Shown here one piece after another: positions 48,405-51,744 of a stretch of DNA of 64,000 nt. The stretch comes from Phormidium sp. FACHB-1136. Lineage in GTDB: Bacteria > Cyanobacteriota > Cyanobacteriia > Phormidesmidales > Phormidesmidaceae. The notes beneath the pieces were generated by a model. It made no database searches and was not told where the DNA came from. It saw only the letters and a list, made by a program, of their open reading frames with translations. The stretch lies in NCBI RefSeq assembly GCF_014697375.1, contig NZ_JACJRS010000020.1, positions 1-64,000 on the forward strand, in the 5' to 3' direction. The position numbers were made by a program, and so were the translations under genes. Every line of letters starts with the position of its first letter. The stretch's first letter is position 1.

Positions 48405-48950
48405 ATGGCGCGATCCAAACGTAGCTTCAAGACCGGATTTTGTTACCACGTTACGGTGCGGTGCAATAACCGTGAGTTTCGGTTAATTCGGGATGAGTGC
48501 CGTGAGATTTTGCTGTATGCCCTAGAGCGCTGCAAGGCGAAATACGGCTTCAAGCTCTATGGGTTGTGCATTATGAGCAACCATGTGCATTATTTGCTGG
48601 AGCCAAAACAGCCCGACGATTTGCCGAAGATTATGCATTGGCTGAACTGGTACACAGCCATGTGCTTTAACCGCATGTCGTTGGAACTTTGTGCGGAAGC
48701 CTATCGGAAGTTTTGCAAGCGCTATAAACCCAAACCTAAGCCAGAGCGGCGCAACACCTGGGGCAGCAAGAAGCTGGCGGCGATTCGGCAAAAGATGAAG
48801 GCCAAGAAAAAGACCCCTGGCCAAAAAAGCCTGTGGGATGAATGGCAAGCGCCCATGGATGCGGTGCAAAATGTGGCTAAGAAATTTGTATTAGCGAACT
48901 GTTTGAACCCAGATGTGGTAAGTGCCCGATTTGAGGCCAATACGACCTGA
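48405..48950 (+). CDS. REP-associated (IS200-like) transposase, probably internally deleted
   Basis: 181 residues. The N-terminal half is a clear Y1/RAYT fold: GFCYHVTVRCNNREFRL and LYGLCIMSNHVHYLLEP, with the His-x-His metal site. After MHWLNWYTAMCFNRM the family normally continues with a GHFWE/RYY-type segment and the catalytic Tyr; here it jumps to a basic tail (KFCKRYKPKPKPERRN, TWGSKKL, VAKKFVLANC) of the kind found at the very end of longer relatives. A middle block of roughly a hundred residues therefore seems missing, and with it the nucleophile. From memory, not alignment. Confidence 0.72.
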   Translation: MARSKRSFKTGFCYHVTVRCNNREFRLIRDECREILLYALERCKAKYGFKLYGLCIMSNHVHYLLEPKQPDDLPKIMHWLNWYTAMCFNRMSLELCAEAYRKFCKRYKPKPKPERRNTWGSKKLAAIRQKMKAKKKTPGQKSLWDEWQAPMDAVQNVAKKFVLANCLNPDVVSARFEANTT

Positions 48951-49046
48951 CCCTTGGTGCCAGGTAAGCGATCCCCGAAACACCTAATTTTCCGTGCAGA
49001 GGGGGTCGGTAATCATTCTTTTGGATCGGGCTGAAGCGCTTATCTG

Positions 49047-51329
49047 CTACAGTTTACAAGTCTCCGCGCGAGAGAAGAGAAGCACCCACAACGCACGCCA
49101 CCCCCACACCCCACGCCACGACGGAAATTCCGCTGTGGGGGAAAAAGAAGGGTTGGCTTGTAGGTCTTTGTAGCTCAGATAGCTTCCGTCCTTGCGCCAG
49201 CCGACGCGATCTGCAAATTTTAGCCAAGTGTCTTCATGATACTTGCCATCAAGCGGGTTGCCTGTCTCTACATAAATTTTCTTTTGCACGCTAAAGCCAA
49301 ACTTACCGTTGCTGTATTTCACCCAAAGCTGATCTAAAATTCGCAGGTCTTCGCAGGGAAATTCTTCTAGGTCTTTGGGGTCAAACCATTGACCTTCTTC
49401 CTTGCCCACGGCTGGGTTGGTAATCATTAGGCGATAGGTTTCCTCATCAGCCTCGCGCCATTGTCCAGCCTTTAGCAGTTCCTCTAGCTTGGCATAGGTC
49501 GAGTTTTGGGTAACGGTTTCCAGATCCTCCAGCAGCGCTTTGAGGTCGGGGTCTACTTTTTCAGGGCGGGGATATTCCTGTAGGCAAAGCTTGGCGAGTT
49601 GGGCAGCTTCGCTATCTAGCTCACAGGCTTTGCGGATGATGTCGTTCAGGTCATCAGGATCGAGTTGGGCGGTGTAGAGCAGCACGGTTTCTCGCCAGAG
49701 GGCGGTGTTCCAGTTTTGTAGAACTAGGTTTTGGGCAATGGTGGTGTTTTGGAGTTGGGCTAGTTCTCTAGCGGCAAAAAAGCCTTGAAAGCTGGCGTGG
49801 GGAAATTCGTATTCCTTGGGTTCGCGCTCCACCAGCAGTTCGCTCACGTCCACAATTTGCTTTAGCCAATCGGCGGGGTCTGCCTGGGCCTTTTGGAGGA
49901 TGGGGTGGGGTTGCAGCAGCGTTAGTAGGGCATGGTGATCGATGACGAGGCGTTCTTCATTGGGGTCTGCGGTTTGGGATGGGGTGCTGAGCATGTGTAG
50001 GGCGATGGCTTGCAATAGGGCCATGTTTTTGTCGTAGTCCAGCCACATTGTGATCAGTCGGGCCGCTGGGCGGGTATCGAGTTGCAGGCTGCAAATGCGC
50101 TGATATAGCCCTAGGCGTTGGCTGGGCAGGGCTTTGGTGGGGGCATAGCGGTGCAGCGTTACCAATAGGTTCAGCAGCAGCGGGTTTTTGGCCATTTGCC
50201 CTAGGTCTTCGGGACGGGCTTGGATTTGGGCAATCAGGTTGTCGGCATACTCGGTGGCGGCTTCCCTGGCATGGCGGCGGGTAGAGCGATAGCAGCGCTC
50301 TTGGCAGAGGTACCACCGCCGAATAAAGTCGGCCTGTTGGTCGGCATTGAAGTCGTTGATGTAGATGGGGAGGGAGGGGCGTTTGGCGGTGTAGTTTTCG
50401 TAGCCCTTGGGCCGCGAGGTGAGCAGAAAAATAGACTGGTCGTAGTCTTCCATTTGGGTGGTAATCCATTGGCTCACCTGGGGGCGCTTGGCCATGGGGA
50501 TTTCATCAAACCCATCCAGCATCACCAGGGCTTGGCCACGGTTCAGCAGGTTTTCGGCCCAGCGGTCGGGCACCTGGGGCGGGTGATTTTTCCACAGGGT
50601 CGGGATGTGGTGTTCGGTCATCAGTTGCGCCAAGCCGGGGGGCTGAGATTGGCTGAGTTCGTCCACCCATTCCCGCAGACGCAGCAGTACAGGCACCAAC
50701 TTTGGGGCACCGTGAAGGCGCTTTCCTTGGCCATAGAGAAGCGTAATATGGCGCAGCAGAGTGGTTTTGCCCTTGCCGCCCTTGGCCAAAATGCACATCT
50801 GCCGAAACTGGCGATTTTTCCGAGATTTGGCTAGCAGTTTCCAAATATCCAGATTTTCAGACCGCAAACTGGGATCTAGCTGGCGAAGGGGCGCTTGATC
50901 TAATGCGCCTATTGCTCCGCTTAAATCTAGGGGCACAAAGACCTTTTCCAAAAGTGGAATGGCTGTGTTCTCTGGGTTAAAGCCTTCAATGGTGGATTCT
51001 TCACACTGACGGGCCTGCCGCCGTAGATAAACGCTGGTAAAGTCGGTTCGCAAGGTTTGGGGCAAGCGTTTCGCCGCCGCAATGGCGTGATCTAGCCCTT
51101 GGTCAATTTCTGGCGCTAGCTTGTTGCCCACCTTGATCGCCATCCACACCGCCGCCGCCCCTCCAAAGCACAGCGCAGCCTCGTTCCACTGCCCAGTGCG
51201 GATGTTGTTAATCCCCACAGCACTCAATCCTCCTGGCACCCCCAGGGTGATCAACTTTTGGTCGAGCAGTTCAAAGACCTTCTCTAGGGTGGTGGGTGTA
51301 GGGTTGGGCGGTGTTCCGGTCATGGCCAT
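49047..51329 (-). CDS. NACHT STAND NTPase with C-terminal GUN4 domain
   Basis: 760 residues from MAMTGTPPNPTP; a TTG at 51419 would add 30. A hydrophobic helix (about 53-70, ALCFGGAAAVWMAIKVG) suggests membrane attachment. The NACHT core follows: P-loop ILAKGGKGKTTLLRHI (about 178-193; Ala replaces the first Gly), Walker B ALVMLDGFDEIP, sensor FLLTSRPKGYE, then a helical region with YEFPHASFQGFFAARELA. The last 140 or so residues are a GUN4 domain: LEELLKAGQWREADEETYRLM, WVKYSNGKFGFSVQKKI and ending LLFSRAETCKL. GUN4 binds tetrapyrroles, so porphyrin sensing is possible. Could be signalling or defence. Confidence 0.88.
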   Translation of the reverse strand: MAMTGTPPNPTPTTLEKVFELLDQKLITLGVPGGLSAVGINNIRTGQWNEAALCFGGAAAVWMAIKVGNKLAPEIDQGLDHAIAAAKRLPQTLRTDFTSVYLRRQARQCEESTIEGFNPENTAIPLLEKVFVPLDLSGAIGALDQAPLRQLDPSLRSENLDIWKLLAKSRKNRQFRQMCILAKGGKGKTTLLRHITLLYGQGKRLHGAPKLVPVLLRLREWVDELSQSQPPGLAQLMTEHHIPTLWKNHPPQVPDRWAENLLNRGQALVMLDGFDEIPMAKRPQVSQWITTQMEDYDQSIFLLTSRPKGYENYTAKRPSLPIYINDFNADQQADFIRRWYLCQERCYRSTRRHAREAATEYADNLIAQIQARPEDLGQMAKNPLLLNLLVTLHRYAPTKALPSQRLGLYQRICSLQLDTRPAARLITMWLDYDKNMALLQAIALHMLSTPSQTADPNEERLVIDHHALLTLLQPHPILQKAQADPADWLKQIVDVSELLVEREPKEYEFPHASFQGFFAARELAQLQNTTIAQNLVLQNWNTALWRETVLLYTAQLDPDDLNDIIRKACELDSEAAQLAKLCLQEYPRPEKVDPDLKALLEDLETVTQNSTYAKLEELLKAGQWREADEETYRLMITNPAVGKEEGQWFDPKDLEEFPCEDLRILDQLWVKYSNGKFGFSVQKKIYVETGNPLDGKYHEDTWLKFADRVGWRKDGSYLSYKDLQANPSFSPTAEFPSWRGVWGWRALWVLLFSRAETCKL

Positions 51330-51366
51330 CGTTCCGGCTACATTTTCCCTATGGTATGCCCACTCT

Positions 51367-51665
51367 TTAGTTTTGCCCCTGTTCTGAATCCCAATCCAAC
51401 ACCTGCTGATATTCCTCAAGCTGCGCCAAGGCCAGGGCTAATGCTCGTCGGTGGTCGTCGGTGGGGTCGAGTTGGTAGCGGACTTGCGCCGCAAGGCATC
51501 GTATTTGGCATCGATCTCGGCTAAGGTCTCGTTCACGCGCTTCAGCCTCGCGTTTTCTTGCCTCAGCCAAGCGGTTTGTTTCTCGTTCGCAAAGCGTGTC
51601 GTTAGACAATTTCGACGGTTCCACTCAACGCCGAAATTAGCCAATGTAGCCACGAGGGCCGCCAC
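51367..51665 (-). pseudogene. Frameshifted small coiled-coil gene upstream of NACHT-GUN4
   Basis: Two overlapping frames look like halves of one protein. Frame A (GTG 51665): VAALVATLANFGVEW, then a coiled coil QTAWLRQENARLKRVNETLAEIDAKYDALRRK, after which it degenerates. Frame B supplies the natural continuation VRYQLDPTDDHRRALALALAQLEEYQQVLDW to a stop at 51367. The switch point is near 51485, around GCAAGTCCGCTACC. Either a frameshift mutation, a sequencing error or programmed shifting. It lies 37 bases upstream of the NACHT start, so it may be part of that module. Confidence 0.5.
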
Positions 51666-51744
51666 GGTGAATCGGTTGCTCCAGAGGCGGGGTTGGGCGA
51701 TGAAGCCGAGGAGGGGGAAATCTTGGACATCGTAGAACCTCTCC

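Follow-up and report, generated by a model that had tools for sequence, protein, structure and literature searches.

Several described systems resemble, in one part or another, the locus reported here. The diversity-generating retroelements (DGRs): these diversify NACHT/STAND-type and ternary conflict sensors (PMC10907252) and are known from cyanobacteria (PMC7517822). The TnpA_REP-lanthipeptide association: as indicated by the title of the work describing it, this couples a transposase to prochlorosins in marine picocyanobacteria (Laurenceau et al., bioRxiv 10.1101/2020.03.09.984088, cited in PMC10783134). The cyanobactin precursors: these have hypervariable cores (PMC4663559). The GUN4 fusions: GUN4 domains have been found joined to kinases, caspases, trypsin and TIR domains and put to use in conflict systems (PMC7159879, PMC8195603).

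We analyzed a window of 64,000 nucleotides from Phormidium sp. FACHB-1136, which holds a gene for a NACHT-GUN4 protein. Like the DGR-diversified sensors, it codes for an immune-like effector of a multicellular bacterium with hypervariation targeted to the C-terminus; unlike them, it is linked to a DNA transposase, varies in length and frame, has no template repeat that we could find and bears a GUN4 tail in place of a C-type lectin/FGS fold. As in the TnpA_REP-lanthipeptide system, which recurs in marine genomes we surveyed (L200, L206), an HUH-Y1 transposase lies beside a gene whose 3' end is hypervariable. Here, however, going by the title of that work, the main partners are GUN4-tailed NLR/TIR/caspase effectors of filamentous cyanobacteria, along with cyanobactins, and there is a dedicated conserved 3' DNA element. 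The cyanobactin precursors likewise have a hypervariable segment between conserved flanks, and some carry the same convergent transposase (L187, L189-L191), but they are small RiPP precursors whose conserved 3' part is coding. The NACHT switch is common to bacterial NACHT/NLR-like proteins, from which the protein reported here differs in having a C-terminal GUN4 domain with a variable tip. Among open-licence papers we found none that connects GUN4 effectors with TnpA_REP or with hypervariable tails, and no report of an association of these transposases (RAYTs) with NLR-like effectors.

The NACHT-GUN4 protein and its replaced ligand loop

The gene lies on the reverse strand at 49047-51329 and codes for 760 aa from the ATG at 51329, which is likely the start in preference to the TTG at 51419. 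Pfam profile searches confirmed the NACHT-GUN4 fusion proposed in the initial annotation, with scores above the curated cut-offs for both NACHT (PF05729, 51 bits against 26.7; aa 206-369 of the 790-aa frame) and GUN4 (PF05419, 117 bits against 29.2; aa 638-775 of the same frame). The NACHT domain (50313-50804, reverse strand) has invariant Walker A (GGxGKTTLL) and Walker B (LVMxDGFDE) motifs, and a Foldseek search with the AlphaFold model recovered NLRC4, NOD2 and NLRP3 as best matches. Together, the domain match, the Walker motifs and the NLR folds mark the predicted protein as a NACHT STAND NTPase. In the model the NACHT core is good, the GUN4 domain moderate and the last 44 residues have a pLDDT below 50. 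The best N-terminal hydropathy window, at 1.33, lends slight support to the membrane association suggested earlier. Relatives were found in 57/57 cyanobacterial genomes searched, in many of which the match is to the GUN4 or NTPase part alone.

The GUN4 domain maps by PF05419 to 49095-49508 on the reverse strand, and its conserved part stops at the EFP codons (49122-49130). An independent whole-genome search recovered it at the same coordinates (G000:C113:49095-49508) with 121 bits, as one of eight GUN4 domains in this genome, and solved GUN4 structures also match the C-terminal domain. The PADLOC model PD-T4-6 matches the protein of frame 49047-51419 with 118 bits in the GUN4 region; as the match runs through GUN4 only, the model may also pick up GUN4 proteins outside PD-T4-6.

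GUN4 is a cofactor of the Mg-chelatase. The window protein shares its fold, as the 117-bit match indicates, but is fused to an NTPase and has the LxNxLR ligand loop replaced. Canonical versions, such as that at locus L001 of the same genome, continue as ...SAPDGHLPLSNQLRG... with the LxNxLR bilin motif; in the window protein and its relatives all residues past the P of the (H/E)(L/F)P motif are swapped for an unconserved tail. Since LxNxLR directly follows (H/E)(L/F)P in canonical GUN4, the variable tail occupies the site of the ligand loop. LxNxLR serves as the published criterion for bilin binding, and published GUN4 paralogs also lack it (PMC10156173); in the window protein the motif, which marks GUN4 orthologues by its place after GHLP, is missing.

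A hypervariable tract, a conserved 3' element and a convergent transposase

Downstream of the gene are a hypervariable 3' end and a convergent transposase, both of which the initial annotation missed. Past the (H/E)(L/F)P motif the order is hypervariable tract, conserved element and convergent RAYT. In the window, a G/T-rich tract of 42 nt (49080-49121, reverse strand) codes for the variable C-terminal tail; it adjoins the conserved element (CTCTTCTCTCGC...GAGACTTGTAAACTGTAGC...; 48951-49079, reverse strand), which reaches the stop codon of a forward-strand gene for a Y1/HUH transposase of the TnpA_REP/RAYT type (48405-48950, 181 aa; PF01797 Y1_Tnp, 54.6 bits, against 67.7 bits in its relatives). 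This RAYT has lost 76 aa in frame, including the region of the catalytic Tyr (YIHANP), and is by its sequence catalytically dead. Many RAYT copies are broken, that of the window included, and the HUH and YIHANP Tyr motifs (as defined in PMC6006769) are intact in 70/76 copies.

Across loci the tracts range from about 14 to 150 nt (median 46 nt), have no conserved sequence and are 76% G+T, compared with 51% for the GUN4 sequence before them, some not being G-rich (L176, L195). The element, of ~130-165 bp, has the form CTCTTCTCTCGCnnnGAGACTTGTRAACTGTAGC..., includes a small TCTC/GAGA hairpin with a nearly invariant stem and ends in TTACCTGGCACC at the RAYT stop. It supplies the last codons and the stop in any of three frames (...FSRAETCKL, ...SLASRLVNCSR or ...LLSHRDL), all of which are in use. 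An in-frame stop is present in 0/61 scored tracts in the used frame and in 23/61 in each of the other frames, with 26.5 expected by shuffling; this count leaves out loci without a long open frame, and in four loci outside the 61 (L139, L147, L164, L169) either a stop interrupts the tract or GUN4 is truncated.

The core pattern of the element has 52 matches in 57 genomes (reversed-pattern control, 0), and all but one of those that could be judged lie at the 3' end of a GUN4 gene; the single clear exception is a copy lacking an upstream GUN4 (L245, G015:C290). At one locus (L002/L247, G000:C46) the variable end of GUN4 is a long hydrophobic, TM-like extension followed by the same 3' element. In the window's own genome an element search yielded three copies, each beside a GUN4 gene, and hence not the dispersed REP palindromes that go with TnpA_REP. 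No conserved DNA that could be the left end of a transposon was found upstream of the RAYT; conservation is confined to its 3' side, and an IS200/IS605 transposon with two conserved ends is accordingly rejected. The 3' region has no Rfam match above chance, and no RAYT was found in viral contigs and phages.

The arrangement is widespread. A tblastn search across the collected loci put the RAYT in this position at roughly half of the NACHT-GUN4 loci, including loci whose NACHT proteins share just ~40% identity. The reverse search of 32 related genomes found every RAYT copy, one short fragment aside, convergent to a GUN4-tailed gene wherever the contig allowed a decision. The subfamily is present in 75/388 genomes of the class, a count that takes in more distant marine copies. 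Among 63 RAYT copies with at least 57% identity and 400 nt of room on the contig, 55 face a convergent GUN4 tail (most at 40-385 bp), as scored with a GUN4 profile built from the window's own domain; five face RiPP precursors and three neither partner, two of these being fragments. One genome was sampled per species, including many MAGs whose contigs break close to this repeat, and the counts are descriptive because locus pairs are not independent. Named plasmids of Cylindrospermopsis curvispora and Nostoc edaphicum carry this arrangement as well. The complete RAYT-linked GUN4 effectors (n=28) include 9 NACHT, 4 TIR, 4 caspase, 3 trypsin and 2 kinase proteins, and AAA domains also occur among these genes.

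Away from GUN4, the partner of the subfamily usually is again a gene with a hypervariable end, here cyanobactin precursors (DUF5840/DUF5837; PF19158, PF19155) and a Nif11 precursor. A cyanobactin pair (L187/L190) is 91% identical in the body, 66% in the tail and 95% in the 3' flank. Distant marine RAYTs (44-47% identity) are convergent to two prochlorosin-like Nif11 precursors, five RDVRVHD proteins with variable tails and two proteins of another variable-tail family, and in these last two families near-identical genes diverge in their final residues; same-genome paralogs of the RDVRVHD group (L201/L202) differ mainly in the tail (51% identity, body 95%). The members of that group (L201-L205), of ~320-380 aa, end in RDVRVHD followed by unrelated tails, and each is convergent to a distant RAYT. 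At L207 two RAYT-gene units adjoin: their genes share ...SLFSQGGKM and then continue as QGGGTYAGGDS and ECDPRAGDQCS, with 3' flanks 95-98% identical.

Between conserved flanks the tract turns over. Three related loci (L154/L160/L178) have nucleotide identities of 87-89% in GUN4, 25-54% in the tract and 75-82% in the element. Identity of the element tracks that of the RAYT (partial r 0.52) over that of GUN4 (0.15), while RAYT and GUN4 identities correlate moderately (r 0.38-0.44); at L160/L161 RAYTs that are 92% identical lie beside GUN4 domains only 36% identical. Taken together, these observations suggest that the RAYT and the element are the moving unit. The moderate correlation disfavors movement of GUN4 and RAYT as one unit.

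A candidate mechanism and competing explanations

The best explanation, to which we give an even chance on the sequence evidence, is an NLR-like effector with a C-terminal variable region that is rewritten at the tract/element boundary, the RAYT being the likely driver. The effector would combine a helical, weakly hydrophobic N-terminal part, a NACHT switch and a GUN4-fold tail; the GUN4 fold would act as a scaffold, with the short peptide past (H/E)(L/F)P repeatedly rewritten. The rewriting site would lie between the gene body and the 3' element, which travels with the convergent RAYT, an HUH-Y1 single-strand nuclease. Most likely, the RAYT binds the single-stranded form of the element and cleaves where tract and element meet, upon which repair or re-joining may add untemplated or captured, mostly G/T-rich sequence, creating a new in-frame tail. 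Tails with open frames would be retained, and by analogy with the DGR-diversified sensors they probably change what the NACHT, TIR or caspase effector senses, possibly in defense. With its adjacent RAYT dead, the window locus has probably ceased to change, barring the action of another enzyme in trans. Counting against this explanation are that dead copy, the genomes that retain tract and element with no detectable RAYT of the subfamily, the four loci with an interrupted tract or a shortened GUN4, the lack of a conserved left end and the low confidence of the modelled tail. More tentatively, and with somewhat less than even confidence, we propose a retroelement-free system in which a domesticated HUH-Y1 transposase and its 3' element would continually randomize the C-terminal tip of NLR/TIR/caspase effectors and RiPP precursors without a template, giving a pool of variable sensors.

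The strongest rival is selfish insertion: a RAYT unit would enter the 3' ends of GUN4 and RiPP genes, leaving the tract as unselected junction filler. The movement of RAYTs among different GUN4 genes within a lineage, as at L160/L161, fits this reading, as do the many broken copies and the persistence of tract and element where no RAYT of the subfamily is detectable (G007, G010, G011, G015-G017). We nevertheless hold it to be unlikely, though a serious contender: tracts are open in frame far beyond the expectation from composition, almost no copies of the element occur elsewhere, and the hosts are precisely those kinds of gene whose C-termini are hypervariable, among them RiPP cores with an established function (PMC4663559). 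Another reading keeps the ligand of GUN4 at the center: its tail would bind porphyrin or bilin and gate the effector by photosynthetic state. GUN4 has also been proposed as a tetrapyrrole sensor in conflict systems (PMC7159879), the homology is clear, GUN4 is fused to many effectors, and an N-to-G exchange in the LxNxLR of Chlamydomonas GUN4 abolished the binding of bilin but kept that of porphyrin (PMC10156173). Yet the loop with the equivalents of the ligand-binding Asn and Arg is absent and an unconserved tail stands in its stead; hence, of the tetrapyrrole-binding sensor suggested by the initial annotation the GUN4 homology stands, while sensing by the window protein appears doubtful and a switch of this kind quite improbable.

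Two further mechanisms would place the source of variation elsewhere. Slippage in a G-rich tract could put the 3' end into another reading frame, as in a contingency locus, which would suit the G-rich tracts and the use of all three downstream frames; since the tracts are complex and unrelated rather than repeat-number variants, and two of them are not G-rich, we regard this as very improbable. Template-driven diversification of the DGR type, prompted by the related effector classes that are DGR targets in multicellular bacteria (PMC10907252), is already largely refuted and hardly credible: no second copy of the window's tract core (30 nt, at most 3 mismatches) exists in the genome, and tracts vary both in sequence and in length.

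Returning to rewriting at the tract/element boundary, the tie of a variable tail to a transposase suggests a second route, besides DGRs, for scrambling the sensing ends of immune-like proteins. If the RAYT drives the variation, this would be a second, template-free form of targeted protein diversification in bacteria, common to immune-like effectors and RiPPs. It would also account for the recurrence of GUN4 tails on so many effector types and allow the diversification of cyanobactin and prochlorosin cores to be put to a direct test using a single enzyme and a single DNA element.

The upstream companion

Upstream of the NACHT-GUN4 gene, at 51370-51740 on the reverse strand, lies a member of a multi-copy family of two-TM coiled-coil proteins that is truncated at its 5' end and broken in frame, its pieces spread over three frames. 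The frameshift suspected earlier is real: two frames match parts of one protein that is intact elsewhere in the genome and genus, frame 51438-51665 with the sequence upstream of it giving the N-terminal part and frame 51367-51624 the C-terminal part. The window copy lacks the first ~32 residues and has its coiled-coil part out of frame; because it begins at FYDVQDF, the first TM segment is absent. Intact copies, of 150-180 aa, start with MGLFTRPVWLNFLSLLPATTLAVLTLAIAFLRFYDVQDF..., occur in tandem in the same genome and are found across the genus. Hence, of the two fates initially considered for this gene, decay is borne out by its sequence, which is that of a degrading member of a dispersed family. 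A role as conserved partner is rejected: among the NACHT-GUN4 loci examined, only one other (in G014) has companion copies upstream, and the family is otherwise dispersed, multi-copy and tandem-prone.

At that other locus (L059) two intact tandem copies lie directly upstream of the NACHT-GUN4 gene, which is itself broken near its N-terminus by an IS630-like transposase. In the coiled-coil region of the companion (51370-51740; L059, L060, L061) a second frame is also open (SALSGTVEIEKQTAWLKQ...KYDALRRKSATNSTP), and members of the family switch between the two coiled-coil frames.
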